From Paramacrobiotus metropolitanus (lineage: Eukaryota; Tardigrada; Eutardigrada; Parachela; Macrobiotidae), in NCBI RefSeq assembly GCF_019649055.1, contig NW_026570227.1, forward strand, positions 1,860,001 to 1,924,000: 64,000 nucleotides of DNA, in the 5' to 3' direction. The position numbers and the translations under genes were made by a program. Below are positions 2,906 to 64,000 of the stretch, piece by piece. A model generated the notes under the pieces. That model was given only the letters and a program-made list of their open reading frames with translations. It made no database searches and was not told where the DNA came from. Position 1 is the first letter of the stretch. Each line of letters starts with the position of its first letter.

Positions 2906-3094
2906 CATTTGAGATGGGATTTATCGCCGCCGGAGTGATGTGCCAGCAGCATTCGAAGGAGATGCTGAGGTGTTCCGTCATGCAGGAACTGTTCAGCAGC
3001 AAATGCCATAAGGCGCACACCCTATCAGACGCACACTGATCCGTAATGAAAAAAAACGAAACCTTTAATACGTATCATGTCATAAGTACAAACT

Positions 3095-3240
3095 TAGTAC
3101 TAGAAAACATATGTATAACAGAAACACTTCCTCAATGCTATCCTGATCGGGAACTGAACCCATTACACAAATCGCATTCCCCCGTTGTATCTGGATAGAA
3201 AGTCGCTGTCTAAAAACCTCTTTGCGCACGTTCCTGGCCG
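3095..3240 (-). pseudogene. 3' end of a non-LTR retrotransposon inside intron 3 of copy 1
   Basis: The minus strand encodes QRLSIQIQRGNAICVMG, the conserved tail of the retrotransposon C-terminal domain, and then the stop and 3' UTR. The DNA is nearly the same as the segment at about 36965-37140, including the 3' UTR (TAGTACTAGAAAACAT), so both belong to one element family and are truncated at different 5' points. A shorter relative is at 25550-25680. Confidence 0.65.
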
Positions 3241-3659
3241 GTAACGTAATTAACGTATGTAAATTGCAAAGGTCACAAACAGTCAGACTAGTGCCACCTG
3301 ACAGCGCAGACTGGTGTTGGGAAAAGAGCGTTAGCACAGACATCCCGTACCGTTTGGCTGCCATGCGCGAGTGCAAATCCAAATGCGACAAGATATAGCG
3401 CAGCAACGACGGCGTCAGAACACGGACGCCGACATCCAACCCCAATGTATCAACTTCTCCATCTAAGAGTGGAATAATTATTATAGTGTAAGCCAGTGCC
3501 ACAGCAAACCAAATAAAGGTCCCCATAGTGTCTATTTACAAGAGTTTAAGTTTGCTTAGCTTCTGCGCAGTTCTTCCCTTTCAAACTTCCACTATAGCTG
3601 CACAACATGCGGTGCGAAGCCTAAGAGCAGTTTCGAACAATCCCATTTCAAAAAAGGAT

Positions 3660-3765
3660 AAATTTAAAGAAAAAAAAACGTTGCTGAGGTTTTCTTAGGT
3701 TTTCGCCGGGTATCGTAGGATTTCTTAGGTCTTCTTAAGTTTCTTGGGTTTTCCCAGTGTATCAT
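3660..3765. repeat. TTCTTAGG-rich core repeat remnant
   Basis: A short run of TTTTCTTAGG / TTTCTTAGGTCTTC units. It matches the central core of the hairpin-arm elements at 8800-9275, 47293-47945 and 50072-50746 but has no arms here. The same core occurs reversed at about 42115-42165. Confidence 0.45.
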
Positions 3766-4763
3766 GTATCTTGATGTTTATTTATTTCGCGACTGATGAA
3801 AGCTAGAACCTGTAGGATAAGTATGTTGCTAACCAATTTCAGTTGGGACATCATAACTGACGCGAAGCTCCCGATTATGGATCGGTGGTAGGTGGGCGCG
3901 GCTAGCTAAATGGGTCTCCAGGATTTTCGGCAGGATTTCCGCCATCGAGTGCGTTAGCCTTGCGTCGGTTTCCGGACTGACGAAAACAAACATGCAACCC
4001 TCGTTTTCGACGCGCAGATCGGCAGCAGTCCGGCAACCAGTCCCGGCTTAGCCGAAGTTTGGCTTCCACCGCCTCGTGAACTTGCTTTATGATGCGACAT
4101 TTATCGGCCGGGGCTCACTGAGCACGGCGTTCGCTTGATCGAACGGTACGAAGTGTTTGGCGTACCTGCAACGCTCCAACAAGGAGGGTCCGCTGGGCGG
4201 GAGTTCACTGGCCATTTGGCGCAGATGCACCACCTGAAAACCAGCCTGGTACGCAGGGACATCGGTGTTGACAAGGTCGGTTTTGATGCACAACATCTGA
4301 CAACACGGCGCCTGGTTACAGCCGACAATTGGGCTGAGCATGACGGCTGGCCGGAACCGGAACGGTCCGTTATCTTCATCACGCAGTGCCGCAAATACGG
4401 CAACGCTTCCCTGTATAGTTTCTGGGTAACCTAGTAGGATGGCAGCGGCCAGACGTCTTTTAAGTGCATCCAGTGCGCTTCGGTTGTTGTGGAGTCGAAG
4501 TGGATCAAGGCGCGGTCGTCGTTAAAATCCTGGATGTATCCCAGCCACCACGGGTCGTCAGCGTTGCGGACAACAACCGTGTTGTCATATTTCATTTGAG
4601 TATCAGTTACCAGCAGCGTCCGAAACAGCGGCATTGCTCCCAGCGAATTTACAGGGGCCTAAGGATAATAAATTCATCATTACAAGTAATAAAAAAATGA
4701 TGAGATGTTGTGTCAGAGATCGGTTGCTGGACTTACCTTTTTAAGCCGTTTTACAGGCTGCAT

Positions 4764-6024: not shown

Positions 6025-6955
6025 AAGTGTGTGCCTTATGGCAGTTGGTTGAGCAGCTTCCAAATGACGGAGCGCACCAGCATCTCCTACGAAAGCTGGT
6101 GGCAAACTGAGCCCAAAGGCGAGAAGTTCATCCTTACAAGGGACACCGACAACTGTTTCAAGACGGCCGCTCTCCTCAGTCGCGTAATCAGCGCAAATAC
6201 TAACCGTCTCACTGTCTTGAGAGTCTTCCCGCCAACCCACTCCGGATTTTTGCGTCCGATTTTCGAGGCCATGGAAATTCGCTTACCGATTCTGGTGGTC
6301 AAAGACCACGTTAACGTCGAACCACGCGGATTCACTGCCGGAAAGCATCCGCGTTCCAGGCACAGGGCAGCGCGTGAATTAAGGTTCTACCAGCGCACTT
6401 GCAGCGTCGTTCTCCTGTACAACTGGACGGTGTCCAGTCTTTTTGGCTCGCAAGCGTACAACGTCTTTCTAAATAATTCCTACTATGGGCGTACGGGCGG
6501 GCCACTATTCGTACGATCTCTGCCGGCGGACGAGCGGGAGTGGAAGCTGCCTTTCACGTGGGAGTCGCACGAACTGGCCATCGACAAACTGCAGATCAGA
6601 ATTCTCAAGCTCCTGCTTCCCTGCAGGGAAGACTGGTTCCACATGACGGATCGCGTGATGTGTGCGCTCAACGACAGCTTCCCGCCGGTCACGCCGGACA
6701 TGCTGGCAAAGGTCACGGCGGTCCACGCGCGCTGATCGCGTATCCTGGCCCCGCTGGACTGTGAGAGCATTCGCAACTGCCTGTGACTGTTAGTAGTACT
6801 AAGTAGCAAGTATTTAGCACCTCGTACTGTTGAAAACGCATATTAATGGTAATTTTGGAAGTGCATCTATCACGTGCCGTTTATCGTGTTGTGCAGTTCC
6901 GTACACCTGGAGCAAAATGGCCATTTACGGAATTAACGAGGTGTTGCGAGTGTGA
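6025..6955 (+). pseudogene. Family A copy 2, exons 4-5 only
   Basis: An isolated exon 4 (about 6025-6790) and a decayed exon 5 (about 6889-6955, STWSKMAIYGINEVLRV and a stop). The exon 4 body is well preserved: RDTDNCFKTAALLSRV, ILVVKDHVNVEP, RVMCALNDSFPPVTPDMLA and KVTAVHAR. The 5' end has small deletions that shift the frame relative to the VCALWQLLL consensus, and stops follow KVTAVHAR and the degraded NYLRL end. No exon 1-3 sequence lies upstream, where a minus-strand retrotransposon fragment sits. A 5'-truncated duplicate is the simplest reading. Confidence 0.8.
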
Positions 6956-7622: not shown

Positions 7623-10600
7623 ATGCAGGCTTCAATTGCAAAACGGTTAAGAACCGTAAGTCCACAGCCGAATGTTTTAATATTAAACCTTCTTAATGCA
7701 TTTCGTATGATAGAAAAAGTTGTTAGTGCAGCAGACCCTGTGATCTACTATGCTTTATGCGGTTTTTTTGTTTCTTCAGGACCCTCAGCCTCAGGTTGTA
7801 TTAGGTGCACTGCCACCGTATAAGCCGCTGATGGCCGATACCGGCCAAATGAACTACCACAACACAGTCGTCGTCCGCAACAGGGAGGACGCTTGGTGGC
7901 TGGGATACATCCAGGATATCGACGGCGACCGCGCCTTCATCCGCTTCGACTCCACAACAGCCGAAGCTCGCTGGATGCCTTTAAAAGACGTCTGGCCCCT
8001 GCCATCGTACTGGGTCACCGAGAAATTATCCACTGCAGGTTATATAAAGGTTGCAGTATTTGCGGCACTGCGGGACGAAGACAGCGGACCGTTCCGTTTC
8101 CGGCCAGTTGTCATGCTCAACACAATGGTGAGCTGTGACCTGGCACCGCGTTGTCAGATGTTTTGCATTAAAACCGATCTTTCCAAGTCCGACATTCCGG
8201 CACACCAGGCTGGCTACCAAGTGGTTCATCTGCGGCAAATTGCCAGTGAACTGCCACCCGGCGGACCCTCCTTGCTGCAGCGTCGCATGTATACCAAGCA
8301 TGTTATTCCGTTTGGCCAAGCCAACGTCCTTCTCAGCGACCCGTCGGATAAAAGCCGCATCATCAAGCATGCTTACGAGGTTCTTCAAGCCGAGCTGCAT
8401 GTACGGAATGAACATTTGCGGACTGCTGTCGTTTTCACCTGCGTATCGAAGAGAAGGTTTGCATGTTTGTCTTCGCCAGTCTCACACCCGACGCGCAACG
8501 GACGCACTTTATGGCGGCAGTCTTAAAGAAAATTCTGCAAACCCATCTAGCGGGCCGTGGCGATCCACCCCCTATCCATAAACGAGGACTCTGCGCAAAT
8601 GCAAAAACTCCTTGCGAAGCCGGTTGGTAGCCTGTTGTAAATAATACCATTATATTAAAGCTTATTTTAAGGAATAAAGGGTACAGGGTTTATTTTAAAG
8701 AATCATTGGAAGCCGTTACCTTTAAACTCTAGTAATCTCCGAAGCAATCGCAAAGTAGCGCTGTATTTCTTAATTTGATTGCTTGATGCATTTGTTTGTA
8801 CTGTGGTAACACGTCCGTCGTCTGTTCGTCGATCTACAACTTGCTGCCCGACAATTTGCTGACCGACATGCTGTTGACTTACACAGTTCGCTGACCGACA
8901 AATTGTTAACCGACAATTTGCTTTTCTGCTAAATTGTTGACCGACGTTTTGTTGAAACAATTTTGCTGATCGACAACTTGCTTCTCGGGTCGACGCGCTG
9001 ATCTTTGAGTTTTTCTAGTTTCTTCTTGTTTTTTCTTAGATTTCTTATGTTTCTTAGGGTTCTTAGGTTTTCTCGGGTTTCTTACGCCAGCAAAATGTCT
9101 TCAGCCAGTTGCCGGTGTTCACAAAATGTCGTTCAGCGAATTGTCGTTTCAACAAACCCGGGTCATCACTGTCGGGTCATCATTTGGTCGGTCAGCAAAA
9201 AGTCGTAAACAAGTTGTCGGTGAGCATGATAGTCGTCAGCGAGTTGTCGGTGTGCCTTGTACGGTACTGTACACTAAAATAACTTCTTGCTTTTTCAGAT
9301 GTCGAGGTTGACACATCGATTTTCTCCGTCAGCATCCGTGATTTGACGCCTCCGCTGCTGTGTGACATCTTGTGGCATTTGGATGCACACTCACGCATGA
9401 CAGCCAAACGGTACGGGATGTTGTGAGTCCAGTACAGATAATATCCCTTTTGTGGCACCCCTTTTGTAGTGGATTGTACAGAGTAGTAACGGGCGCCTGC
9501 TGTGTTCGAGCAAGTTGTAATTCATTGATAAAGTGTGCGTTCCTTGATAGGGTGTGCGTTTTATGGCAGTTGCTGCTGGACAGCTCCCAAATGACAGCGC
9601 ACGTCAGCATTTCTTTCGAGAGCTGCTGGCACATCGCACCCGACGGCGATAAATCCCTTCTCAAATGTGACACCGACAACTGCTTCAAAGCCGCGTCCCT
9701 CCTCAGCCGCTCAATCAACTCAGCAACAATCAGTCTCACTGTGTTGCGCGTCTTCCCGCCACACCACTTCTTGGTAACCCTGTTGGATGCCATGGAGATG
9801 CGCTTGCCTTTACTGGTGCTCAAAGACCACGTCAACATCACATTATCCAGATTCTTTCCTCGACAAAACCTATCGCGTCTGAAGCACGGTGCAGCGTGTG
9901 ATATAACGCTCTATAAGCGCACCTGCAACTTTGTCTTCCTGCGCAATTGGACAACTAGCGATCTTTTCGGTGGACAAATGCACGAAGTCTTTGTGAGTAA
10001 TTGGTACTATGAGGATCATAACGGCGTGGAGGTGACCGCTCTTCCCTTGCCGGCGCACGAGCGGGAGTGGATGCTGCCTCTTACCTGGCAGCCGCGCCAA
10101 TTGGCCATCGACAAGCTGCAGATCAGCATTCCCAAGCTCCTCATTTCCTGCAGCGACGGTAAACTGCACATGACCAGTCGCTTGATGTGCGCGCTGAACG
10201 ACAACTTCCCGCCGGTAACGCCGGACATGCTGGCGAAGGTCACGGCGGTTCACGCGCGCTGGTTGCGTACCTTGACCTATCCCGACGACTGGCAGAGCAT
10301 CCGCAATTACCTCCGACTGTGGGTGCAGTAACAGACTAGGGTGTCGCGGTTGACTGGTACTACTAATACTACCAGTCTGGTAGTATTTGTATGACCCATA
10401 ACAGTCTTATGGTAAGACCACCCAGCGATGATTCATCATTTCACCGCGTTATGAAATCTGACGCTTTTCTCGGCAAGCTGTCCGTCACTAGAATTTTTAG
10501 AATTGGTTTCACACTCCCTTGCAGACCGCTTGTTTCCTCTTGCCTAATTTCTTGCACCAAACCTAAATCCGTTTCTTGCATCACTGCATGCTCTTGCCAT

Positions 10601-11946: not shown

Positions 11947-14900
11947 ATGCAGCGTGCAAAACGGCTTACAACGGTAAGTAAAGCAATTTAATTTGGATGG
12001 TACCACAACGTCTTGTTATCCATTTACTCTGTATTTGTCATCTACATCTCTTTGGTTTGGAATGGGAAAATTGTTTCTTCTTTAGGCCTCTGCGGATGCG
12101 CTGGGAGCCATGCCGCTGTTTCGGCCGCTGCTAGCAACTGATAATCAAATCAGCTATAACAACACCGTTCTCGTCCGGAACGGCGACGATGACTGGTGGC
12201 TGGGATACATCCAGGATATTGACGGCGACCGTGCCTTCATCCACTTCGACTCCAGCGCAGTCGCGGCTCGCTGGGTGCACATGGGAGATGTCTGGCCTAT
12301 CCCATCCTACTGGGACACCGACCTGTTTTCCAGCAGTGGTCACCACAACGTGCCCGTATTTGCGGCGCTGCGGGATGCTTTTGGCGGACCGTTCCGGTTC
12401 CGACCAGCCGTCATGCTTGACAGCCTCTCGGGTTGCACGCCGGATTGTACTCTATTCTGCATCCGAACTGACGTGTCCAACACCGGTGCTGTCGCAAATC
12501 AAGCCGGCTTTGAGCTGGTCCATCTGCGGCAAATTGCCAGTGAAGTGCCGCCCAGCGAACCCTCCTTGCTGGCTCGCCGCGGTTGCGGTCTGCTGTACAT
12601 CAAACACTTTATCCCGTTTCCCCAAGCCAACGCCGTTCTGCGCGATCCATCGGATAAATTCCGCATCATCAAGCACATTTACGACGCTCTCGAAACCAAA
12701 CTGCAATCAAGACGAGAAGATCTGCCGGACTGCTGCCGATTTCATCTGCGCGTCGAACCGGAGGGTTGCCTGCTGGTTTTCGCCAGTCTCGAGACCGACG
12801 CGCAACCAACGCACTGGGATGACGGAAATGCTGCCGAAAATCCTGGAAACACATCTGGCTAGCCGCGCCCATCTTCAGCGAACATTTTGCGCAGCGGAAT
12901 ACCTCCCTCGCGAAGACGGTCAGAAGGAGGTTATCAGATACCACATAGTTATTACTAGTTCAAACTGTTTTGTTTTATTACCCAGTAGATATCCGAGTTA
13001 ATGGATTAATGTTGACTGTCTGCATCCGGGATTTGACGCCTACACTGTTTAGCGACATCTTGTCGCATTTGGATTTGCATTCGCAAATGAATGCCAAACG
13101 GTACGAAATATCTAGGTGTTCATATCTAGATGTTCGTCCTTGGAAGTTATTTGACGAAATGAGTAACGATTTTTGAGTAACTGGCGAGTTAGCGAATTAC
13201 TCAAAAATCAGTTATGAATCCCGCGCGCAATCAGTTATGAATTCCCAATCCCGGCGCGATCATCTAAGTGCACACACATTTTTAATCAGCTGAAAAGCCA
13301 ATCAGGAAGGGCAAGAGCAAGAATGATTTCAGAACATTCAGACCTTCTCAATTGTCTACGAAATCAATGTTTAGAACTGGCCAATGTATAAGCACACGCA
13401 CAGATGTTTCCGGTGGAACTAGCACCAATGAGACGACCAATCCTTTTACAACTGTAGAATTTTGAAAATTTCCTTAATTTTTCGATCTGTTAACACAAGG
13501 TTATCCTTAATCGCTGTCTCAAGAAAGCGCACTAAAAGTGATCGTGTTTCTCTTTGTAGGGTATGTGCCTTATGGCATATGCTGCTGAACAACTCTCGCG
13601 ATCGACTGACGGAGCACGTTAGAATTTCTTTCGAAAACTGTTGGCACTGCAAACCCGACGGCGATATATCCCTTCCCTCAACGGATACCGACAACTGCTT
13701 CAAAGCAGCAACTCTGCTCAGCCGCGCAGTCCGCTCCACGACCATCAGTCTCACTCTGCTGCGAGTTTTCCCGCCAAATCACTTTGCATTTCTGCATCCG
13801 CTACTGCATGCCATGGAAATTAAGCCGCCTTTCGTGGTGCTCCAAGACCACATGACCGTTAAACCACAAGGACATTGGTGGCAAAAACAGTCGCGTTTAA
13901 AGCACGCAGCAGCGTGGCACATCACGCTGCATAAGCGGGTCTGCAACGTCGTCATGCTGCGCAACTGGACAATTACCGACCTGTTCGGTCGCCAAATGTA
14001 CGAGGTCTTTCTGGATAATTGCTACTTTGAGCGGCGTCTCGGTGAGGAGATATACTCGCGTCCCTTGCCAGCGCACGAGCGGACGTGGATGCTGCCTCTC
14101 ACCAAAGAGTCGCACGAACTGTCCATCGACAAACTGCAGATAAACATTCCCAAGCTGCGGCTGCGCTGCAGCGAAGGACGATTCCGTATGACGGCTCGCG
14201 TGATGTGTGCTCTGAACGACAACTTTCCGCCCGTCACGCCGGAAATGTTGACAAAGGTCACGGCGGTCCACGCGCGCTGGCTGCACACCCTGACCTATCC
14301 CGCGGACTGGCAGAGTATTCGCAACTACCTCCGGCTGTAAGTGCGAGTAATGAACGCTTCAGCGATTACACACTGCTTCGACTGTATTCTTCTGCCGACT
14401 TTTTTTCAGTATATACTAGTATTTAGCAAGAGCAGCCATAGACTGACGATGGCCTGATCTGTGTAAGATTTCCTTCAATTGATTGGTTAGCTGGTGACGG
14501 AATATGGTGATATCGGTACTCGTACTTTACGGCTATATTTGTACTTTCTCGCATTTGCTCTTTTGTTTTGGGTTATACCTTTAGCTGTTCTAACCGGACG
14601 CGCCTTGCGCTTATATAAGTCCGAGAGTTGCAGTATTTTGGCATCAGTTCGTTCTCATTCGGAGTTTGGCAGTGTCGGAGTTTACTATTGAAAATATATC
14701 GTCGGAATGCAGTCTCGTATTCTCGCTTCGCGTAGTTCGTTGCTTACGCATATTATTTAGTTATGCCACATTGAAATTATCAGCTCATTCTCTGTCGTTG
14801 AGTCGGGTCGGTAGGATTGATATTACGGTATTATTCTATCGTACTCGTCTCTCCGTCACTGGAAAGCCAGCTTTAATAAAGCTTATTCAATAGAAATGCG

Positions 14901-16863: not shown

Positions 16864-19508
16864 ATGCAGCCTTCAAAACAATTACGAACCGTAAGTCCCC
16901 AACTGAGTTTTTGATGCACCACAGCGCGCCGATCAAACTTTTATTTGGTCGTTATCTGCTGTGTATTGTGAATCTTATTAATAATTTAGGTCACTCAAGA
17001 TGGGTCAGGAATGCCGCTGTTTAAACCGCTATTGGCGGATGCCGATCAACTCACTTACCACAACACTGTTGTCGTCCGCAACGGCGACGGCACTTGGTGG
17101 CTGGGATACATCCAGGATATCGACGGCGACCGCGCCTTCATCCACTTCGACTCCACAATAGCCGAGGCTCGCAGGATGCACATGAAAGACGTCTGGCCGC
17201 TGCAGTCCTATTGGGACACCGAGCTTGCAAGCAAAGGTCACCAAAACCTTCCTATATTTGCGGCGCTGCGCGATGAAGATAACGGACCGTTCCGCTTCCG
17301 ACCGGCCGTTATGCTATACGCGCTTTTGGGCTGTAACGGGACGTCGGCTTGTCAAATGTTCAGCATCCAAACTGACCTTACCAATACCGATGTCCCCGCC
17401 CATCAAGCGGGGTTTCAGGTGGTCCACCTGCGGCAAATTGCCAGTGAGCTGCCACCCAGCGGTCCTTCGTTGCTGGACCGCCGCAGCGGCGTATTGTACA
17501 CCGAGCACTTTATTCCGTTTGGCCCAGTGAATACCGTTCTCAGCGATCCGTCCGATAGAGCGCGCATCATCAGGCATGCTTACGCCGCTATTCGCACCAA
17601 ACTGGAAAGAAGATGTGGAGACTTGCGGGATGCCTGCCGCTTCCATCTGCGCATCAGACCGGATGGCTGGATGCTCCTTTTCGTCAGCCTCGCTACGGAC
17701 GCCCAACCGCCGCAGTGGAGGACGGAAATCTGGGGAAGCGTTCTGGAAATGCAACGGGCCAGCCGCGACCATCATCCGCCTGTGCATGATCAACAACTCC
17801 GCGCAAGTGATGCCAATGGAGTAGTCGGTTAGTGGTTTGTCCTAGATATATCTTTTAGGTGGTCCTAACTTACTGCGAAACACAAAGTTCCTTCGGCATT
17901 TGCTATGGAGTATAACAAAGATTAAAACGATGCTCTTAAAGCATCTCAACTGGAACTGCTTACTTATACGGCGAACGGCTGTTCAGGTTGGAAAATGATG
18001 CGATGTCACGAAGCAGCTAAGATTACGATTATCAGAACACTCTGTCTGGCAAACCGGCACGAAATCAGTCCACGAGACATTTTGTCAAGATATAAGGAAA
18101 CATGATAAAACTTAAGGAAACAGAATTTAAACATAAGAGAACATAGGTACCCAAGGAAAAGCGAAAACGAAGAAGTCCTGCACACACTAAGTGCGTCGAG
18201 CGCGAATTGTCGCTTATACCGTACTCGCAATAATGAATTAATCACGTTTTCCTTAGATACGAGTACGGAAGTTGATGTATTGATGTCGACTGGCAGCATC
18301 CGTAATTTGACGCCTCCTTTGCTGAGCGACATCTTGTCGCATTTGGACGTGCATTCACAAATGAAGGCCAAACGGTACGAAATATCTCTGCGGGCGCGTT
18401 TAGTTCCATGGCAATAGCACTATTAGGGGACGTTTTTACCAAGGGTCTTTGAGCTGACCGAGTCATGGAAGTTTAAGAATTTTGACATACTTTTTATTGC
18501 TTTTAATGCTGTATTCGTATTCGTAATGGTATTCGCTGTTAACAGAGTGTGCGCCTTGTGGCAGTTGCTGCTGAGCAGCTCCTGCATGATGGAGCACGTC
18601 AGCATCTCCTTCGAAAGCTGCTGGAACATCGAACCCGACAGCGAAAAGTGCGCCTTGAAATGGGACACCGGCAACTGCTTCAAAGCGGCCTCGCTGCTCT
18701 GTCGTTCAATCAACTCAACGACCATCAGTCTGACCCTGCTGAGAGTTTTCCCGCCAAACCACTCTGTCTTTTTGCATTGGATGTTGCAGGCCATGGAAAT
18801 CCAGTTGCCTATACTGGTGCTCAAAGACCACATTAACGCCAAATCAACCGGGATTTATTTCTCGCAACGCAAGCAGTGGCGTCTAAAGCACGGAGTAGCG
18901 TGGGATATTACACTATATAAAAACACTAGCAACTGCGTCTTGCTGCTCAACTGGACCGTTTCCCATCTTTTTTGGTCGCCAGATGTACAGGGTCCTTATG
19001 AGCGATTGGTACTATGAGGAGCCTAACGGCGTGCCAGTCGCCGCGCGTCTCTTGCCAGCCAGCGAGCGGGACTGGATGCTGCCTCTCACTGACGCGCCAC
19101 CTCAACCGGCCATTGACCAACTGCAGATCACCATTCCGAAGCTGCTGCTGCGCTGCAGCGACGGCCGATTCCCTATGACTGCACGCGTTATGTGCGCCCT
19201 GAACGACCACTTCCCGCCCGTCACGCCGGAAATGCTGGCAAAGGTCACGGCTGTCCATGCGCGCTGGTTGCGCACGGTGACTTATCCCGCGGAATGGCAG
19301 AGCATCCGCAACTACCTCCGATTGTAAGTGCAGTAAGGAGACCGTACTTCGAAGCGCAGCTACACGTGTATGGTGTTTTGTTAGATTCTGCGGGTTCCAC
19401 TCGGACGGCAGCCCGAAAGTGTGGGACGACGTCGATCTGCGGCGTGAGGATGTTTCCACCTGGAGCAAGCTGGCCGTTTACGGGATCAACGAGATGTTCC
19501 GCGTGTAA
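16864..19508 (+). CDS. Family A copy 5: Tudor-like/F-box-like protein, one frameshift in a T run
   Basis: Exons: 16864-16890 (MQPSKQLRT), 16990-17827, 18257-18374, 18546-19323, 19385-19508. Exon 2 is fully open: WWLGYIQDIDGDRAFIHFDS, then VFAALRDEDNGPFRFRPAV with the first residues IFA here, then the CRFHLRI block. F-box: LTPPLLSDILSHLDVHS then RVCALWQLLL. Exon 4 is one base too long. The extra T lies in a six-T run near 18968-18973 (SHLF then GRQMYRV in the next frame), a spot prone to sequencing error. Exon 5 uses a TTAG acceptor and ends EMFRV and TAA. With the T run read as five, the product would be about 627 residues. Whether the gene works depends on that base. Confidence 0.75.
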
Positions 19509-21566: not shown

Positions 21567-22697
21567 ATCGGAATCGCCGGCACTCCTTCTGGTAAACCAG
21601 TTGGCTATTTAGCAGGCTAGAGTTTCGTCCGTGATCGAAATTAACCAGACTACGATGTAGGACTAAAATCTGAAAAACCAGCGAGTCGTTCCGCGGTTAA
21701 AAAATTGAATAATAAAATCAGCAAACAGCGCTCAACAGGAACAAGTCCATTGCGCACAAATCGCCGGCACTAGGTTCGAACAGAGGAGCGCTGTTTTGCG
21801 CAGTATTTGTTAAGGTGAAGCATCTACGTTTTTTGCCTTGCATACACGTTGTAGTAAAGCAATGAGTGGAAAATTAGAGGCCGCAATAAACCAATAACGA
21901 TCCATATTGCCGAACGCAGCAACTGAACTCCATCGCTTCGACGGTGAGGCGCGCTGCACCGCGTAGTTGTAATATAAGCACTGAATGGGCGATTGTGCAC
22001 CGCTGCGATTTGTGGTGTGAAATGTGACGTGGGTTTTTGTCTGGCGGCGCCCGTTGACATCCGCTGCCTCCCACACTCCTTGCCGTGTGAACAGGAACCG
22101 GCCGGATCGACCTTTCCAGCCACAATCACCGGAAGCGGTTGGTAAAGGTGACACGCTGCGCCGCTTCGAGGGAGCGTGCGCTAATTATAACACTGCCGGC
22201 ATTCTTGGATACATAGTCACTAACTCGGGCACGGAAGCTGGATTAACAATAAAATGCCGGGATAATTGTTTCTGCTAACATAGACTTATATGAACTGCAG
22301 TTTGGCCCGCTTATTCCAAGTTCGCAGCAGCGGAAATCCCCGCAAGCCGCAAAATTGTTGGATCGGGTGTTTTTAGCTATTCCGACGAAATGTGCACGTG
22401 CTGCTTAACTAGCGTGTTATAGTGATTTGGAGTAATTATATTATGCCACGGTGCCTGCAGACCATAACGGAAAGGTCACCAGTAAAATGTCTAATTAAGC
22501 ACGTGAAATAATTAAACGAAATTGATATGCTCACTTAGACATAAAGGTCACCGAGTCATAATAAATTGGGGCGCTACTGCATGTCTCCGTAAAATGATAA
22601 TATGGATAAATAAATATTTTCGCTGAATATGATTAGCGACGATAATATGCTAGCACGAATCCGCTCTGCTCAACCGAGACACGACGCAAAACGGCAG
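21567..22697. other. Intergenic between the two receptor genes
   Basis: Contains the 5' flank of one receptor and the 3' flank of the other. The stretch at about 21755-21840 (AATCGCCGGCACTAGGTTCG) recurs at 23040-23125 inside the intron of the second receptor, and 21590-21650 resembles 20430-20490. These matches are further signs of local tandem duplication. Other open frames here overlap repeats and look non-coding. Confidence 0.45.
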
Positions 22698-24730: not shown

Positions 24731-24735
24731 CTACA

Positions 24736-28561: not shown

Positions 28562-28614
28562 ACGCCGGATCCTGCAGACCGGCTATCGTTTATTAGGCAA
28601 CCGTACTATTTTAA

Positions 28615-34629: not shown

Positions 34630-34639
34630 GTCTGCTGCG

Positions 34640-47292: not shown

Positions 47293-47945
47293 AATTGGGA
47301 GTGTGACATTTCGCCGCACTCATACTCGACGTGCGACTTTTCGCCGCGAAGACATTTCGCCGCCGGACATTCGGACGCTGGGACACTTCGGTTTGGGGCA
47401 TCACGCTTTGAGACATTTTACATTTGCGACATTTTGACGCAAGACGTCTGGTCGCGGACATTTCGTCTTGGGGCTTTTGGAACGGTGCGACTAACCGCCG
47501 CAAAATAATTCACCGCGCTTAATTCTCAATAGATTTTGCAGCTTTTTATAGACTTTCTTAGGTCTTCTTAGGTTTTTTAGATTTCTTAGATTTTCTTACG
47601 TTTCTTGGGTTACTTAGGTTTGTTTAGTTTGCTTAGGTTTTCTTATGTTGCTTACTCCTTAGGTTTCTTAGGTTATTCGTTTGGTTTTGTTTTTAGTTTT
47701 CCCTTTTCGGGCTGTCTTATTTATCTTAGCAAATCATTTATCTGATAGGTAAAATGTCGCTTCGTCAAGATATCCTTGCGGCGAAATTTCCTTGCGTCGA
47801 AGAGGTCATGCGACGGAAAGTCGCGCGGCGTAACGTCACAAAATGTCCTGCGACGAAACGTCGCGCGGCGGGATGGCCTTGCGGTGAAATGTCTGCGACC
47901 AAAAGTCCCGCGACTAGTTGCCCGCGGCGAAATGTCGCGGTGCTG
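47293..47945. mobile_element. Hairpin-arm element, interrupted copy (rest at 45069-45086)
   Basis: The left arm (about 47300-47515) is built of GCGACATTTCGCCGC-like degenerate units. The core (about 47540-47690) is TTTCTTAGG-rich. The right arm (about 47745-47945) has the inverted units (GCGGCGAAATGTCGCGG). The first 18 bp of the element (GCACCCGGACAATTGGGA) lie at 45069, beyond the inserted retrotransposon. Re-joined in thought, it is about 660 bp, as long as the intact copy at 50072-50746. No coding frame. It interrupts family A copy 7. Confidence 0.7.
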
Positions 47946-48300
47946 TAGCGTGCTTTACACTAACTATTTCGTTCCGTTTGACCGCGTTAACGCTGTTCTG
48001 ATGGAGCCGGCACATCATCAAACACGTTTACGACGCAATTCTAGCAAAGCTGGGTTTAACCCGTTCAGGGCCGAGACGGTCTGCCGGACTGCTGCCGGTT
48101 TCCTCTGCGCGTTGAAGAGCAGGTTTGCATGTTTGTTTTCGTCAGTCTCGAAAGACGCGCAACCGGCGCAGTGGATGGCGGAAACCCTGCCGACAATCCT
48201 GAAGACACGTCTGGCCAGCCGGGATGATCTTCCGCCGATCGATAATTGGACGGTTCGGGCAAGTGCAAATATCCCTTGCGAAGCCGGGGAAGCAGCTTAA

Positions 48301-50864: not shown

Positions 50865-53800
50865 ATGGGCCAAGTAAGCATTAAAAATGTGTTGGCATCG
50901 TCGTATTTTACAACAAGAAACAGCCTCGGCTTCGCCTCCGCGTTTCTTGTGGTCCCCAGTCTACGGCCGGTTTATTTAGATGATTTCGATCAGCTGTTTA
51001 GTTAACATCTTATTCCTTCAGCAAAACAAAACTGTCCGAAAGTAGCGCTAAAACGTAAATAGGATAATAAGTAAATTTACGGCTTTTGTGCACTCAGATG
51101 CATTCACTTTCACTCAGAAGAGAATCTATGTTAACTTTTCCATCCCGACTCTGAGGGTACGAGGTAGAAAATTTCAACGTAAAGAACGCTTGCAATAGAT
51201 TATCGATGCCTATGGGAGTTGGGTCACTCGTTCACTTAGCGGGATGTGTGCTCTGGACAGCAGCGGTAGTTCGGTCACTCGTTACCTAGCGGGCCGTGTG
51301 CTCTGGACAGCAGCGGTACTTCGGTCACTCGTTCACCTAGCGGGCTGTGTGCTCTGGACAGCAGCGGTATTTCGGTCACTCGTTCACCTAGCGGGCCGTG
51401 TGCTCTGGACAGCCTCGGCTTCGCCTCCGCGTTTCTTGGGTTCTAACCTTCACGGCCGATTTGCGGATTGCTAACTTAGAATGGATAAATCTGAAGAGCC
51501 CGATAACAAAAACTTTATAAAAAAATAGATGTTTTGGTTCGTGCAGTCGAACGCATTCACTTTGACTTTACAGATAATTTTTGTTGAATTTTCGTAACGA
51601 AAAACCATCCGAATCTACTGTAATCAACCACGAGAGGACGCTTAGGCTGGACACTGGTGCCAGTTGGGTCACCCACTAACAACTTAGCGGGCCCTGTTCT
51701 ATTTTGCTCATGTTTTTTATGTTATTTTGCCCATGTTTTTAGCGCTTTAAATTGTAAACGATTTATTGAAACGAAGCCATCCATTAGCAGCATCGTTTGT
51801 GTTACTGCTAATATTATTGGTTTTCCTAGTTTTGTAGGAGTAATAGTTTAAATATTTTTATTTTGCTGATCTAAAAAGGTACCAGTTTAAATTTTCTGAT
51901 TTTTTCTCCATGCAACCGGACTATTAAATTATTTTCACAAGGTCACCTTGAGCTTCCAGCTCTACCGGCACCGGCACGAGAGCACGGGAGCCGGAGCGAA
52001 TAATTTTTAAAACAAAATGCATGTGACACAGTTTCCGAACATGCGGAATCGAATGGCGTTATCGATTTTTCGATTAATTTTTTGGTTTGTTCTGACCAGA
52101 TCGCACGGGGTTTTCCGTTGTAATATAGATCTTTACCTTGAAATACAACAAACACAAAATGGAAACATTAGTGAGCTGGAAGCATCAGCACTCCACATCT
52201 CTTTAAGACCGTTTATGAAAGACAATATCTGCTGCTGTGTTGTAAAGTCCTTAATTTTTCTTGTCAGAAAACAGGTTTTTGTCATAATGAGTGAATTCTT
52301 GCCAAATTGTGCACTGTGTTGTTTTTGTGTAGACCAGTCTGGACGCTTTGCCGAGGTATCAGCCGTTGCTAGCGGAGGCCAATCAAATCAGCTACCACAA
52401 TACGGTTATCGTCCGCAACGGCGAGGACACGTGGTGGCTGGGCTACATTCAGGATATCGACGGCGACCGCGCCTTCATTAACTTCAACTCCACACTAAGC
52501 GAAGCTCGCTGGATGCACATGCAAGACGTCTGGCCGCTGCCATCCTACTGGGACACCGAGCTCTTTAACACAGCCGGCAGCGAAAATGTGCCTATATCTG
52601 CGGCGCTGCGCGATGAAGATAACGGACCATTCTGGTTTCAACCAGGCGTGATGCTCGACAAGTTTGCGGGTTGCGACGCGAATTGTCACATGTTATACAT
52701 CCAGGTCGACGTTTCCAACAGCACGGTCCCAGCACAACAGACTCGGTTTGAGGTGGTCCACGAAGGTCAAGTGGCCGCTGAGCTGCCACCCAGCGGACCC
52801 TCCTTGCTGGGTCGCCGCAACGGTTTCCTGTACAGCAAGCACTTTATCCCGTTTGGTCAGGCCAACGCTCTTCTGATCGAGCCTTCCGATAAATTCCGTA
52901 TCATCAAGCATGCACACGCCGCTCTGCGAGCCAGAATGTTTTTGACCCGCACTTGCATGAGTGACTGCTGCCGATTCCATTTACGCATCGAACCCAACGG
53001 CTGCCTGTTTGTCGTCGGGAGTGCTGCAACGAACGCGGAGTCGACGCACGGGATGGCGGAAGTCTTGCTGAGGATCTTGGAAACCCATCTGACGAGCCGC
53101 GCCAATTTGCCGCCAATCGGTACGCGAGCATTCCGCGCAGGAGAAGACATTCCTTGCGAAGGTTGGCAGCTTGGCGTTGTGATGTCATCTAGTCGTTCCA
53201 CTGGTGTAAACTACTGTAAACTACATTTCTTTTCGTAGATAGCCAAGTTGATGCATGGAGATTGACTGCCGGCATCCGTGATTTAACGCCGTCGCTGCTG
53301 AGCGACATCTTGTCACATTTGGATTTGCATTCGCGAATGATTGTCAAACGGTACGGTATCCCTGTTTGGTCGTTTTTTTCCCATTTTTTTGCTTGAGTAA
53401 TTTATGCAGTTCGCTTCCGAGCAAATAAGCCATTTCCGGGTAGGACGACAGTCTAGTACAGGATTAAAATAACCGGGCATTTGGATTGGTTAGTCGGTTG
53501 CTTTGCAGAAAACTGTTTTTTTTAATGATGTCAATATACAATGTATGTGTTGTTATATTTGTAGGGTGTGTGTATTGTGGCAGTTGCTGCTCAGCAGCTC
53601 CTGGATGACGGAACACGTGAGCATCTCGTTTGAGAGCTGTTGGCAGCTGAAGGTGGACAGCGATAACTGCTTCAAACTGGCCTCCCTCCTCAGCCGCTCA
53701 ATTAACTGCACGACAATCAGTCTCACCGTACTGCGAGTTCTTCCGCCACACGGCACTTTATTTTTGGGTGGGATGTTGCAGGCCATGCAGATCAAGTTGC

Positions 53801-54817
53801 CTATAATTGTATTCAAAGACCTCGTTAACGTCAAACCGTCCGCATATTATGGACAAGGCCAGTCATGCCAACATGGGACAGCGATTATGCTGGTTCTATA
53901 TAAGCGCTACTGCAATTTCATCGTGTTCTCCAACTGGAAAATTGGCGACCTTTTCGGTCAACCCATGTTGGATATCTTTGAAGACCGTCTCGGCTGGGAG
54001 TCCATTTATATGACCCCTCGTCCCTTGCCTGCCCAGGAGCGGCAGCGGATGGTGCCGCTTTCATACGAGTCACATGAACTGGCCATCGACAAACTACCGA
54101 TCAGCATTCCCAGGCTGCTGCTGCGCTGCAACGAAGACGACAGGCATATAGGCAGTCGCTTAATGTGCGCGCTGAGCGACCACTTCCCGCCGGTCACGGA
54201 GGACATGCTGGCAAAGGTCACGGCGGTCCACGCGCGTTGGCAGCGCACCCTGGCGTATCCCGAGGACTGGAAGTGCATCCGCAACTACCTACGGTTGTAA
54301 GTATGAACCTAATAAGTAATAATTAGCTTTTAGCAATGATTAGGAAAATGCACGCTGGTGTGCACTGGCAGACCGGAGCGAGACTTCATTGGCATTTCCA
54401 GTACGGCACGCGTGGCAGACGCAGAAGTATATTTCAAAATGCTGGTCAAGGTGAAATACTACAAAAAGGTCACGGGTTGTCTGACCGACCGGTCGTACTG
54501 TTTAGGTATAGTTACCTAAATATGCCTGCGTTAAGAAAAATGTAAGTAGCGGTGTCAATGAACAGAAGGTCCAACCAGCCAGTGAACTAGTATTAAAAGA
54601 GAAAAACCGCTGTATATCATGCAAGCGAACGAATGGTGATCAAATCAAATTACATGAGCGGACACATTGCCCTATTGAATCTGTTTCCCGCAGGTTCAGC
54701 GGGTTTCACGCGGACGGCAGCCCGAAAGTGTGGGACAGCGTCGATCTGCGGTGTGAGGATATCTCCACCTGCAGCAAACTGGCCATTTACGGGATCGACG
54801 AAGTGTTCCGCGTCTGA
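50865..54817 (+). CDS. Family A copy 8: intact Tudor-like/F-box-like protein
   Basis: Exons 2-5: 52333-53161, 53239-53350, 53565-54296, 54694-54817, all open and in phase. Exon 2 starts TSLDALPRYQPLLAEANQ and has WWLGYIQDIDGDRAFINFNS. The F-box spans LTPSLLSDILSHLDLHSRMI and RVCVLWQLLL. The end is CEDISTCSKLAIYGIDEV then FRV and TGA. The start exon is tentative: 50865-50873 (MGQ, then GTAAGC) resembles MDQ and MEQ of copies 9 and 10, but the intron would be 1,459 bp and contains a minisatellite; a nearer start exon may exist. With MGQ the product is 601 residues. The last-exon TCSKL has Cys where others have Trp. Together with copy 6 it is one of only two copies without visible lesions. Confidence 0.8.
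51222..51416. repeat. ~51-bp minisatellite, four copies
   Basis: The unit contains GGTCACTCGTTCACCTAGCG then GTGCTCTGGACAGCAGCGGT. Four tandem copies differ at a few positions, and the last runs into CCTCGGCTTCGCCTCCGCGT, which also occurs at about 50925-50944. A single diverged relative is at 51655-51695. It lies in the putative first intron of family A copy 8. Confidence 0.75.
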
Positions 54818-58956: not shown

Positions 58957-61900
58957 ATGGATCAAGTACGTAAGGAAGCGGGTAGATTCTCTTTACACAA
59001 TCTTTCAACAGTTCTCGAGTACGACATAGTCGAATACTTTCTAGCGCACCGTCAGTTGGCAGGCGTCGACCTTCTTATGGTCCTCAAATAAAATTTTTTC
59101 GTTGTGTATAATTTTATCGCATTAAAAATTCTGTTATCTTTAGACCAATGTGGATGCTTTGGGAGCGATGCCGCGATTTCGGCCTCTACTGGCGGAGGCC
59201 AACCAAATCAGTTACAAGAACACCGTCGCCGTCCGCAACGGCGACGACACGTGGTGGCTGGGATACATTCAGGATATTAACGGCGATCGCGCCTTCGTCC
59301 ACTTTGACTCCACAACTGTGGACGCTCGCTGGATTAACATGAGCGACGTCTGGCCACTGGCCTCGTACGTCTGGTTCACCGAGGGTTTTACGGCGGGAAC
59401 CCCCAACGTCCCCGTCTTCGCGGCACTGCGCGACGAAGATAACGGACCGTGGCATTTCCGGCCGGCCGTTCTGCTGGACAGCCTCCTGGGCTGTGTCGGC
59501 AACATGGGTTGCTGGATGCTGTACATCCAGATCCCCGCGCCCGGCGCCAGCGTGCGGCGTGAGCTGGTCCACGAAGGCCAAGTGGTCAGTGCGCTGCCCC
59601 CCACCGGTCCACCGTTCCTGTACACCAAGCACTGCATCCCCTTTGCCCGCGCCCACGCCCTGCTCAGCGAGCCGTCCGATAAATTCCGCATCATCGGGCA
59701 CGTTCTTGACGCTTTCCTAAACCGACCCGGCTTACTAAGTTTTCCATACTGCTGCCGATTCCACCTGCGCATCGAAGAGGAGGGCTGCACGTTCATCCTT
59801 CTCAGCCTGGATACCGACGCGGCAACGACACAGCGGATGGCGGAAACCCTGTCGAAAATCCTGGACCGGCATCTGGCCAGCCGCGCGCATCTGCCGTCTA
59901 TCCATCAGCGAACGCTGCTTGCAGTCGAAAGTTTCTCTGAAGCCGGTTAGCAGCCTGCCATTAGCTTTAACTTTTAAGCATTTTTTTCAGCGAAACTTCA
60001 AAGTAAGGTATTTGCTGCGAAGCAGACAAACAGTCTTAAATAGAATCGGGCTGCATCGGGTCTGTGCATTCACGTACAGTTTATTTAGATTTAAATTCAG
60101 TATGCCATATCAGGCTCAGTAACTGCTTTCCTTAGATACGGAAGTTGGTGCGTTGATGTTGTCTGCGTGTATCCGTGATTTGCCGCTGTGGCTGCTCAGC
60201 GACACCCTGTCGTATTTGGACCTGCACTCCCAAATGAAGACGAAGCGGTATGGAATATCCCTGCGTTAGCTGATTTCTTTTGGAAACACAGTGACAGTGT
60301 TTTTGCTGCTTGAACTTGTTTCTAAGGTCTCATATGTTGTATAAATCTTTCCTTCATCTTAGGGTGTGTACCTTATGGCAGGCGCTGCTGAGTAGCTCCA
60401 TCATGATGAAACACGTCAGAATCTCTTTCCAAAGCTGCTGGCAACTGGAGGTGGACAGCGACAACTGCTTCCGCGCGGCCTCGCTGCTCAACCGTTCCAT
60501 CAGCTCAGCGACAACAAGTCTCACCGTGCTCAGCGCCGTCCCGTCACACCGGATTTTCTTCTTGGCGGCCATTTTACAAGCCAGGGGAATTAAGCTGCCT
60601 ATACTGCTGCTCAAAGACCAGACGAACGTCAAAGAGAAATGGAGAGACGTGGTTCGTCGCCGAGAGTCGCGCATAAAGCGCCGGGCCGCGGATGAGATAA
60701 CGTTCTACAAGCGCTTCTGCAGCGCTGTCGGCCTGCACAACTGGACAGTGGACGACCTGTTCGGTCAGCACGTGTACGATGCCTTTGTGAATAACTGGTA
60801 CAACGAGCCCCAATCTGGCGTGACCTCGCGTCCGCTGCCCGCGCACGAGCGGCACTGGATGCTGCCTCTCCCCGACGAGCGGCACGAACTGGCCATCGAC
60901 AGACTGCGGATCAGCATTCCCAAGCTGCTCCTGCGCTGCAGCGACGGCAAGATGCGGATGACCTGTCGATATACGTGCGCCTTGAACGACAACTTCCCGC
61001 CGGTCACGCCGGACATGCTGGCAAAGGTCACGGCGGTCCACGCGCGTTGGCGACGCACGTTGACCTAGCCTGAGGAGTGGCAGAGCATCCGTAACTATCT
61101 CCGCCTGTGAGTGCGAACAGTAAGCGGCTTTAATTTGGCCAACTGAAATTGTGCTGAACTGCGAGAGCTTCAGCTTTGCTTGCGAGTGGCCTTTCTATTT
61201 TGGCACTCTGCCTGGCCGGATCTTCATGTTTTCTTAGTCGGCATTGGTAGCTAGAGATAACCCCATATGATGTATTTGTGGTGACTGGTGCGCCACGTTG
61301 CCTGGCCGGATTCATGTTTTCTTAGTCTGCAATGGTAGCTAGAGATAACCCCATATGATGTATTTGTGGTGACTGGTGAGCGTGGTCCTTTTACTTTTTG
61401 AATCCAGCGGAAATTTGCCGAAAATCGCATCTATCGCTGACTGTATACTGTAGCAGGAGTCGCTTTAACTGGTGTTCTAGTGGGGTGGTCAATCCACTTT
61501 CTCACGATTTGTCGGCTGTTAGTGTGGGAAAGGCTGGCGCGATCGGCAGCAATCAGTAAGCGATGCTGACTAGAAGCTGAGTCCCGTTTACACAGGGGAC
61601 GACGGTCGGAAGTGCACGATCATCCCATAGCGGTTAAGCAACGTAACGCTAGGTCATCGCAAGAGCTTATTTTAGCAAGTGCATGTAGAAAATTCAGCGA
61701 GCAAAGCAAGCTGAGGAGCAACAACTGCATAAGCAAGGGGCAAGGTTCGGAGCAAGCTGCAACAAGACTAATTTCAAGATATTTCTGACTGTGTGAGCTG
61801 ACAAGATATTTCTGACTATATTTCTGACTTTTTGTATTTCAAGATATTTCTGACTGTGTGAGCTGCAGTCGATAAAATAAACATTCTGTAGGAATCTTTA

Positions 61901-62116
61901 TAACACAGCAAGCAATAAAAAGTAGAGAAAGGCAATTAACACTCCTACTGGCGGTATATTTTAATTTCTATCGCTGCAATTTTGTGCTGCAGGTTTAGCG
62001 GATTTCAATCGGACGGAAGTCCCAAAGTGTGGGACGATGTGGATCTGCGATGGGCGGATGTATCCACCTGGAGCAAACTGGCCATTTACGGGATCAACGA
62101 GGTGTTCCGCATGTGA
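58957..62116 (+). CDS. Family A copy 9: Tudor-like/F-box-like protein with a premature stop
   Basis: Exons: 58957-58965 (MDQ), 59144-59945, 60136-60247, 60363-61106, 61993-62116; phases match the intact copies. Tudor-like block WWLGYIQDINGDRAFVHFDS; F-box-like segment diverged (LPLWLLSDTLSYLDLHSQMK then RVCTLWQALL). Exon 2 is shorter than in copies 6 and 8 because the region after the second conserved Cys is compressed (QIPAPGASVRRELVHEGQ). In exon 4 the conserved TYPEEW reads T-stop-PEEW: TAT has become TAG at 61066-61068. Translation would end there and lose the last 13 residues of exon 4 and all of exon 5. Exon 5 itself is intact (FSGFQSDGSPKVWDDVDLRW to FRM). Copy 10 is its closest relative. 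Confidence 0.75.
61205..61382. repeat. Tandem duplication of a ~93-bp segment in intron 4 of copy 9
   Basis: CCTGGCCGGATCTTCATGTT at 61210 and CCTGGCCGGATTCATGTTTT at about 61303 begin two almost identical 93-bp units that both run through GGTAGCTAGAGATAACCCCA and GTGGTGACTGGTG. Further on, at about 61770-61866, AAGATATTTCTGACTGTGTG is also repeated. Confidence 0.75.
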
Positions 62117-63247
62117 AGCCATGGAACTGCACCCATGCGCCGACAAAAAAGACCGTCCTGGTTATTACTGCCAGGCAAACAGCAGCATCATGAGATCCTT
62201 GATAACGGCAGACGGAAAGGATTGGCACCTGGGAATGATTTATCGCTACTACGTTGACCGATTATCTTTGTTTGTAACAGCGCTACCGATTTTGGCTGTT
62301 ATTTGACCTTTCAATTCGAAACGTTGTCAGTGGTATCATGCGAAGGCACCTTTAGTTATATTGCCGGCTTGACCGATAATGAGAGAGCTCGTTAGCTTAT
62401 CTGGCTGAATTATCACAGCTGCTTTATTGACCTTGGAATCCGCCTCGATAAGTCTGTCCTGTTTTCTTCATTATCAAGGTTGTTAAGTCATTTATTTCTC
62501 AATGTGTACCAGGCGAGCTTCACTCAACAAAAATGATCAAATGAAGAATTTGTTGTCAGCACTTCTGTTGGAAGATATTCCTGATTTCCTGGTCTCGCGG
62601 CTGTAGATCTCGATATCAAATAATGTAATCCTATTTTTATGTTTATTGATCTGTTTGCTGTAGTCGAAATTAACAAAGTAGTATGATGCAATAAAAGGTT
62701 ATCATTTAATTCAAGATCTGGTGACTGTTGTGAACTCTCGCTCGCATATTTATTTCCTAATTTTGTGACAATTACAGGTACATGTAAACAGCTGATCAAG
62801 GTTATAATTACTAATATCAAATCATGGGCTACCAGGACACCACAGGGATGATTCATAGAAAAACATAAAAACTGTCGGCCGACTCCCAGGCTGGCTGAAT
62901 CTGGGCGGATGGTTAGCGACAGACCAGCGGCTTGCTGGCAGTTGTTGAGTGTTGGTGCACTGTAACTGGAGCACATAATTATCATAATTATGTAGTTAAC
63001 ATTCCAAGAACATCTTAAGAACTAGTCGATCCTAAAGAACTAATTATCTTCCTAAGAATTTCCTTCCTCCGACGTGTTAATTGCGTCCTTCCCTTTCATG
63101 ACAACCATAATTACAGTATATGACTACAATAGTAATTTATGAATGGGGATTGCATTTTAAGTGGTTCAAAAATAACAGTCCTTCAACTGGGTTCGCCTAA
63201 GCTGTCCTGTCATCGGTACGCGAAAGTACAGTACGTCTGTTGCGGAC
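62117..63247. other. Intergenic between copies 9 and 10
   Basis: No supportable gene. A 153-codon minus-strand frame at 62524-62985 has AT-rich codons and no domain. Near 63010-63065 there is CTAAAGAACTAATTATCTTCCTAAG, weakly like the core repeat of the hairpin-arm elements in reverse. Confidence 0.4.
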
Positions 63248-64000
63248 ATGGAGCAAGTACGTAAAGAGGTGAGTCCTTCTCCTTTGCACGATGTGCTAGC
63301 ATTCTTCGAGTAATTACTATACAACATCAACAGAGCACTTCCTAACGCGGCGTTGGCTGGCAGGCGTTCGCAGCTTTTAACTCCGCTGCGTGCGAAACAG
63401 TGAAAAACCGCGGCCAGTGAACAATCGAGACGTATTCGTGTAGTTCCCAAGGTAACTTTATCACTGTCAGAATGCCGTTGTTATTTAGACCTGGGTGGAT
63501 GAGTTGGGAGCGATGCCGCGGTATCGGCCACTATTGGCGGATACCAATCAGATCAGTTACCAGAACACCGTCGCCGTCCGCAACGCTGACGACACGTGGT
63601 GGCTGGGATACATTCAGGATATTGACGGCGACGGCGCCTTCATCCACTTCGACTCCACAACCGTGGACGCTCGCTGGATACCCATGAGCGACGTTTGGCC
63701 ACTGGCCTCGTATGTCTGGCACACCGAGGACTTTACAGCAGGACACCCAAGCGTCCCCGTCTTCGCGGCACTGCGCGATCCAGATAACGGACCATGGCGT
63801 TTCCGGCCGGCCGTTCTGCTGGACAGCGTCACCGGGTGTGGGGTGCCATGTGCTGGATGCTGTACATCCAGATCGCCGGCAGTCCCGTTCGTCGTCAGCT
63901 GGTCCACGAAGCACAAGTGGTCAGTGCGCTGCCCCCCGCCACTCCTCCGCTGCGCTACAGCAAGCACTGCATCCTCTTTGCTCGTGCCCACGCCCTTCTC
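63248..64000 (+). CDS. Family A copy 10, partial (window end), with a frameshift
   Basis: Start exon 63248-63256 (MEQ, then GTACGT). Exon 2 starts at 63489 and runs off the window: TWVDELGAMPRYRPLLADTN, WWLGYIQDIDGDGAFIHFDS, FAALRDPDNGPWRFRPAVLL. After LLDSVTGCG (about 63840) the family sequence (MCWMLYIQIAG, QLVHEAQVVSALPPA, HCILFARAHALL) continues in another frame, so there is a 1-nt indel. Closest to copy 9 (same MxQ start and VHEGQVVSALPP region). Exons 3-5 would lie beyond the window. Confidence 0.7.

Follow-up and report, generated by a model that had tools for sequence, protein, structure and literature searches.

What kind of protein is encoded by an exon series that recurs along a tardigrade contig, and does the series extend beyond that one cluster? 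The question is raised by a stretch of 64,000 nucleotides from Paramacrobiotus metropolitanus (contig NW_026570227.1, positions 1,860,001 to 1,924,000, or C7:1860001-1924000 in our numbering; hereafter the window), in which an exon with the motif VVVRN..WWLGYIQD..FIHFDS (the N exon) is followed by a short exon (LTPSLLSDILSHLDLHS...KR), an intron and an exon that opens with RVCALWQLLL and runs on for about 240 residues (the C exon). Ten loci of this one gene family lie in the window, nine with an N module, whole or in part (at 4658-3832 on the minus strand, 7789, 12098, 17014, 41040, 44851/47893, 52336, 59156 and 63504), and one with an orphan C module. The best match of an N exon to another copy has an E-value of 4.7e-113, and the repetition is far beyond chance. 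We conclude that the genes encode a predicted fusion of an FMRP-type tandem Agenet unit with an F-box, probably a ubiquitin-ligase adaptor, and that the family is spread through the genome.

The copy at 41 kb can be rebuilt from five exons, all of its introns being GT-AG, and the 617-residue product that the first-pass annotation had drawn from 40937-43765 is exact:

40937-40948, plus strand: start exon (MGHL), with donor gtgagt
41040-41880, plus strand: N exon, tandem Agenet-like at about residues 30-160, followed by some 120 residues where KH0 would lie; ends in phase 1
42505-42622, plus strand: F-box exon with the first half of the F-box (LTPSLLSDILSHLDLHSQMKAK); ends in phase 2
42808-43566, plus strand: C exon, with the second half of the F-box (VCAIWQLLL) and the family-specific module of about 240 residues
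43642-43765, plus strand: tail exon (FSGFHADGSAKVW...INEVFRV, stop)

The tiny start exon had been ascribed to every copy, which does not hold: 43 of 45 aligned N exons have an in-frame Met before the conserved Tyr24, and only the 41- and 52-kb window copies are without one.

Going by profile searches, the earlier naming of the middle segment as an F-box was right, and a phase-2 intron interrupts it. All 29 joined peptides in our alignment A1 (29 of the 39 available) matched PF00646, with a best E-value of 7.9e-8, and 27 of them matched PF12937 (best 1.2e-9), both at E ≤ 1. When the F-box profile was run against PDB, nine of the 11 matches at E ≤ 1 were F-box or Skp2-like by name (best E 0.031); a further one, 1fs1_A, we take to be the Skp2 F-box chain. 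Pfam scans of single N and C exons returned no F-box, because the phase-2 intron divides it, and joining across the intron was required. The F-box match of the 617-residue product falls at residues 299-336, and clearer F-boxes are found in relatives (L057, 1.8e-7; L071, 1.2e-8), each above both curated cut-offs. The genome contains four Skp1-family matches.

The N module had been described as a single Royal-family barrel. The Royal-family (Agenet/Tudor) assignment stands, with FXR1 and FXR2 as top PDB matches, but the profile match spans two Agenet units instead of one barrel; judged from such comparisons, it is a tandem Agenet/Tudor unit, and among known proteins those of the FMRP/FXR family are its nearest relatives. 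Only alignment A2 (45 of 47 N exons) is free of members picked with an FMRP model, and its profile gave just three PDB matches at E ≤ 1, namely FXR1 (0.016), FXR2 (0.034) and the eggless Tudor domain (0.66). Alignment A7 comprises 13 of the 45 A2 exons and five distant members (L051-L053 from the weak end of a Tudor_FRX1 search and L054-L055 from an Agenet search, all of them relatives by the A2 profile), and is without the four members most dependent on the FMRP Tudor model. Its profile places all six FMRP-family chains at the top of the PDB ranking, FXR1 at 7.5e-6, FXR2 at 1.9e-4 and four FMRP chains at 0.0043-0.013, and these matches cover both Agenet units. With four Tudor-picked members added (A6, including L048-L050 and L056, which were chosen because they match the FMRP Tudor model) the FXR1 match reaches 2.5e-12, a value that is not independent. 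In hhalign comparisons with two FMRP sequences the Agenet part of three alignments was tested against 60 shuffles each and outscored every one of them (113 of 117 columns in A7). The hhalign probabilities are low (4% for A2, 17% for A7), so the case for an FMRP-type module rests on the PDB ranking and the shuffles; A2 against the single FMR1 of the same genome was not significant (E 0.43).

Single N exons scanned against Pfam yielded a few weak matches, 11 of 26 member matches being to four Royal-family models, Tudor_4 (5), MBT (3), Tudor_FRX1 (2) and Agenet (1), and the remaining 15 scattered over 13 families; no significant Tudor match appeared in the scans of single exons. F32 and Y96 are named as the aromatic residues of the FMRP methyl-binding pocket in a passage of PMC5430443, and the position of F32 is occupied by Phe in 44 and by Tyr in one of the 45 N exons. 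Neither these 45 N exons nor the 42 C exons of alignment A3 (42 of the 44 available, L009 and L041 being omitted) gave a KH match at E ≤ 1, RGG not having been searched for separately. A full FMRP N-terminal domain including KH0 was also considered. The residues fit by eye, and in an alignment of more FMRP-like members (A9) a short stretch of 12-22 columns is matched in register where KH0 begins, with a score that none of 60 shuffles attained; the score of the Agenet part of A9 was reached by 8 of 60. A9 found no FMRP match in PDB, and neither profile tests in the first branch of the family (below) nor Pfam and PDB searches with L057-like members supported the full domain; KH0 is unproven in this family. 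An FMR1 orthologue (L045, C5:3433332-3433952) is present in the genome as one open frame of 630 residues with KH_9 and Tudor_FRX1 above cut-off, and holds the sole KH_9 match found there.

Beyond the window, we searched the whole genome (169.8 Mb, 533 contigs); the genome-wide totals are lower bounds, and in the F-box-model and second-branch searches described below a minority of the first-look candidates was scored. Matches to the N exon number at least 143 and to the C exon at least 150, corresponding after merging to at least 137 N and at least 145 C modules, each set on 55 contigs. A C module lies downstream on the same strand within 12 kb of 100 of the 137 listed N modules, and on the opposite strand for three of the 137; the upstream same-strand control gave 24, a figure that clustering would explain. 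We cut out 40 paired and four unpaired loci outside the window, and in all 44 the best F-box-exon match lies between N and C (weakest E 0.61, in L023). By our count, with no phase imposed, 49 of 51 loci share the position of the GT that follows the F-box exon, and 49 of 51 that of the AG ahead of the C exon, the exceptions being mis-anchored divergent loci. Gene models were attempted for 47 loci picked among the paired ones (leaving out W63, W04m, W07, W12 and W17), with the intron phases of the 41-kb copy imposed (N exon ending in phase 1, often at G|GTTAGT; F-box exon in phase 2; C exon in phase 2, mostly at GTAAGT). Of these models 39 closed and eight did not, 36 being free of stops from N to C and three carrying a stop. 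Since the phases were imposed, the closed models do not prove them; the 49 of 51 splice positions are free of this restriction. The dispersed copies keep their introns, and spread by retrocopying therefore seems disfavoured. No relatives of the family were found in bacterial/archaeal and viral collections at tblastn E ≤ 1e-3. The window cluster is one of many: the family of multi-exon genes is of genome scale, and its complete members encode first the FMRP-type tandem Agenet, then the F-box and last the family-specific C module, which spans about 240-290 residues.

The three parts of these genes evolve as one gene under purifying selection. Among the 36 stop-free models, pairwise protein distances of the N and C modules are correlated at 0.861 (Mantel test; maximum of 2000 permutations 0.323), and the corresponding values are 0.769 for N and F-box and 0.841 for F-box and C. 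The ratio of nonsynonymous to synonymous divergence (dN/dS) was taken from the 14 closest pairs, which have loci in common and so are not independent; it ranges from 0.20 to 0.48 for N and from 0.25 to 0.59 for C. Together, the correlations and the ratios argue for modules that are inherited together under purifying, but fairly relaxed, selection.

More divergent representatives became apparent when the genome was searched with the FMRP Tudor model. Of the 18 further loci that were fetched (L048-L065, two of them by the Agenet model), 11 contain a match to the family F-box profile at E < 0.01. The F-box is encoded as a half-exon, as in the first branch, in L050-L055 and L057 and in a single exon in L056, L061, L064 and L065; the profile gave no match at E < 0.01 in the fetched stretches of L048, L049, L058, L059, L060, L062 and L063. 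A search with the F-box model gave 1080 first-look candidates, of which 150 were scored, all above cut-off. We chose 12 of these F-box loci through the ranking, not at random (11 are on the plus strand), and scored their upstream open reading frames (ORFs) with a profile that contains FMR1 itself and Tudor-picked members. In ten of the 12 the F-box, which lies in one exon, is preceded on its strand by an ORF that resembles the tandem Agenet (E 1e-15 to 0.026); the weakest unit is that of L074 (0.026, or 0.0015 with A6), and L066 and L068 have no such ORF within about 2.4 kb upstream.

A search with the L071 ORF defined a second branch, with 161 matches from 752 first-look candidates, 150 of them listed and 147 remaining after merging. 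None of the 147 listed modules lies within 1.5 kb of a first-branch N module. A listed second-branch module lies within 6 kb upstream of 37 of the 150 scored F-box matches, compared with four on the opposite strand and no first-branch module upstream. The profile of this branch (A10, with one Tudor-picked member, L056, among eight) has six PDB matches at E ≤ 1, all to the FMRP family and all weak (best 0.022), the best two spanning the whole tandem. Beyond the F-box, A3 finds only weak matches in the second branch (L077, 0.0054), and for this reason we do not claim a common origin of the C modules across branches. The two non-overlapping branches together comprise at least 284 tandem-Agenet modules (at least 137 plus at least 147), broken ones and fragments included, and the true number is probably several hundred. 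As a lower bound that includes fragments, 284 modules amount to about 1% of the genes of P. metropolitanus; 24,903 genes are given for the published Paramacrobiotus sp. TYO assembly in a passage of PMC8277472.

Within the window, the order N, F-box exon, C, which the first-pass annotation had assigned to every copy, is kept in seven of the ten loci (3.8 kb on the minus strand, 7.8, 12, 17, 41, 52 and 59 kb). The ten include an inverted copy, a copy interrupted by a reverse-transcriptase ORF, a C exon on its own and a copy truncated by the window end. Apart from the 41-kb copy, the features are as follows:

2937-3023, minus strand: C exon fragment, inverted copy
3350-3430, minus strand: F-box exon, inverted copy
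3832-4658, minus strand: N exon, inverted copy; frame change and two stops
6028-6783, plus strand: orphan C exon; one stop, no same-strand N exon match upstream
7789-8627, plus strand: N exon, 7.8-kb copy; frame change near 8400, one stop
9316-9411, plus strand: F-box exon, 7.8-kb copy
9549-10313, plus strand: C exon, 7.8-kb copy; open
12098-12920, plus strand: N exon, 12-kb copy; frame change at about 12818
13009-13101, plus strand: F-box exon, 12-kb copy
13558-14331, plus strand: C exon, 12-kb copy; open
17014-17805, plus strand: N exon, 17-kb copy; match without stop
18283-18375, plus strand: F-box exon, 17-kb copy
18544-19318, plus strand: C exon, 17-kb copy; frame change at about 18970
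44851-45030, plus strand: N exon, 5' piece
47893-48288, plus strand: N exon, 3' piece
52336-53161, plus strand: N exon, 52-kb copy; free of frame lesions, start codon not located
53239-53350, plus strand: F-box exon, 52-kb copy
53565-54296, plus strand: C exon, 52-kb copy
59156-59923, plus strand: N exon, 59-kb copy; match without stop
60156-60248, plus strand: F-box exon, 59-kb copy
60361-61101, plus strand: C exon, 59-kb copy; one TAG
63504-64000, plus strand: N exon cut at the window end; the next same-strand C match, C7:1925994, lies past the window

The N, F-box and C exons are all free of frame lesions only in the 41- and 52-kb copies. Single frame lesions in the other copies may be errors, because the assembly is Nanopore-based; the published Paramacrobiotus sp. 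TYO assembly is described as Nanopore-based and polished in a passage of PMC8277472. The two N exon pieces at 44851 and 47893 are parted by the reverse-transcriptase ORF (45056-47221, RVT_1 3.8e-16), as would result from a retroelement landing in a family member. The window also contains two ORFs with an ApeC (apextrin C-terminal) domain (26260-27081, plus strand, E 1.5e-24; 32157-32999, plus strand, E 6.4e-27), two 7-transmembrane receptor ORFs on the minus strand (20583-21608 and 23038-24051; 7tm_1 1.4e-18, Srx 6.7e-8), a Kelch-repeat ORF (28031-28582, minus strand) near a protein-kinase ORF (29514-30629, minus strand), possibly parts of one or two genes, a Cupin_5 (DUF985) ORF (37766-38344, plus strand, E 4.2e-35) and an ORF of 242 residues (34045-34770, minus strand) with no Pfam match at E ≤ 0.01.

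As regards function, the domains of the predicted proteins suggest that the family probably consists of SCF (Skp1-Cul1-F-box) ubiquitin-ligase adaptors with an FMRP-type reader. The F-box, going by its pattern, would dock Skp1-Cul1 via one of the four Skp1 proteins of the genome; by analogy, the N module, the C module or both would hold the target; the bound protein would be ubiquitinated; and the paralogues would serve as SCF substrate adaptors that each have their own target. Methylated Arg or Lys or an RG-rich protein segment is probably what the N module reads, our best guess from FMRP, whose tandem Agenet is reported to bind such residues or segments in a passage of PMC5430443. Several observations weigh against this scheme. 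In a whole-protein scan the F-box of the 617-residue product scores 16.9 bits, compared with a curated cut-off of 20.5, and that of the 52-kb copy (17.6 bits) is also below a curated cut-off, one of which several other members pass. At the position of Y96, which we located by eye in profile alignments, 28 of the 45 N exons have Thr and not one has an aromatic residue, which weakens the guess from FMRP and makes methyl-reading by the second Agenet unit doubtful; the FMR1 of the same genome has Ile there. KH0 went undetected in the first branch, its score being reached by 4, 22 and 16 of 60 shuffles for A2, A7 and A6 respectively. No Pfam family matches more than one of the 42 C exons and PDB matches none, so that substrate binding by the C module is an assumption. 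The short F-box exon is noisier in the selection test (closest pair L020/L021, dN 0.10, dS 0). Finally, of the ten loci in the window eight are damaged, incomplete or truncated, and by our count 48 of the 150 listed second-branch matches have an in-frame stop.

These last two figures would also suit a family that is mostly drifting, made up of tandem and dispersed duplicates of little function and many pseudogenes, as would the 37 of 137 listed N modules and 45 of 145 listed C modules that are unpaired and a dN/dS that reaches 0.59. We regard this as unlikely, given that the ratio stays below 0.6 for N and C in all 14 of the closest pairs (which share loci), that 36 of the 47 models attempted on loci picked among the paired ones are stop-free from N to C and that, by our count, only 14 of the 143 listed first-branch N matches have an in-frame stop. 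It is more unlikely still that the F-box binds Skp1 while the proteins act outside degradation, for instance in ribonucleoprotein granules, where they could be adaptors or decoys: the N module resembles FMRP and FMRP itself works in messenger ribonucleoproteins (in a passage of PMC5430443), but the 45 N and 42 C exons scanned lack a KH match, KH0 escapes detection in the first branch and an ordinary FMR1 gene is already available for that role. We therefore retain SCF adaptors as the most probable function.

A use of such adaptors against foreign or selfish proteins is a hypothesis drawn by analogy. The F-box repertoires of nematodes and plants are thought to face proteins of this kind, and the present family resembles them in size and divergence; a Caenorhabditis precedent for F-box action on foreign or selfish proteins is given in a passage of PMC12680543. 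One speculative form, which we rate as rather doubtful, is that the front end of a fragile-X-type protein has been made into a repertoire of several hundred SCF adaptors, a fast-changing surveillance system that would recognise proteins encoded by viruses, transposons or selfish genes, where these are modified or RG-rich, and hand them over for degradation. Another, a special case of the SCF adaptor function that also strikes us as improbable, is that the F-box members take part in genetic conflict of the toxin-antidote or host-parasite kind, as antidotes or agents, and that the Agenet unit is a variable sensor; in its favour, the family is large, clustered and divergent, but whole-gene dN/dS values of 0.2-0.6 give no sign of an arms race.

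The family can be compared with three known systems. It shares with the FMRP/FXR proteins (PDB 3kuf, 3h8z, 4qvz), which are the best PDB matches of four profiles, the order and register of the tandem Agenet units and an aromatic residue at the F32 position in 45 of 45 N exons. It differs from them in the absence of a KH match and of a detectable KH0 in the first branch, in the F-box that follows, in the mostly Thr position of Y96 and in the existence of a separate FMR1 gene. The Caenorhabditis F-box families A1, A2 and B, as described in passages of PMC12062965 and PMC8665587, combine an F-box with FTH or FBA2, and A2 carries a captured transposase helix-turn-helix (HTH) domain at its N-terminus. 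Going by those passages they resemble the tardigrade family in their large expansion and in some 300 divergent residues after the F-box, and A2 sets a precedent for a family that took up a foreign N-terminal domain and then expanded. In contrast, the N-terminal domain of the tardigrade genes is not an HTH but a reader of FMRP type, encoded by an exon of about 280 codons, and neither the 42 C exons nor the F-box ORFs at L061, L071 and L075 gave a Pfam match to FTH or FBA2. SCF-Fbxo4, which acts on Fxr1 according to a passage of PMC5688124, likewise ties an SCF F-box protein to the fragile X family; there, as far as that passage goes, FXR is the substrate of a separate F-box protein, whereas here both parts stand in one predicted polypeptide.

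The first-pass annotation knew of no described metazoan architecture of this type, and we also found none in the open-licence PubMed Central literature, where neither a tardigrade F-box family nor a fusion of Tudor/Agenet, F-box and FMRP came to light, judging partly by titles and the starts of abstracts. A term search of the main text of the P. metropolitanus transcriptome paper gave no mention of F-box or FMR1. The combination of an FMRP-type reader with an F-box thus appears to be undescribed; a large F-box expansion, including one family with a captured N-terminal domain, is already known from Caenorhabditis, and it is this architecture that appears to be new.

Large F-box repertoires in nematodes and plants have been linked to immunity and genetic conflict. 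The tardigrade family looks like a further, separate animal F-box repertoire with another kind of front end, the FMRP tandem Agenet, whose biochemistry is known. With the F-box split by an intron, such families can be hidden by single-exon annotation. The repertoire opens testable questions: which Skp1 is bound, what the N module reads and whether the repertoire varies between populations.

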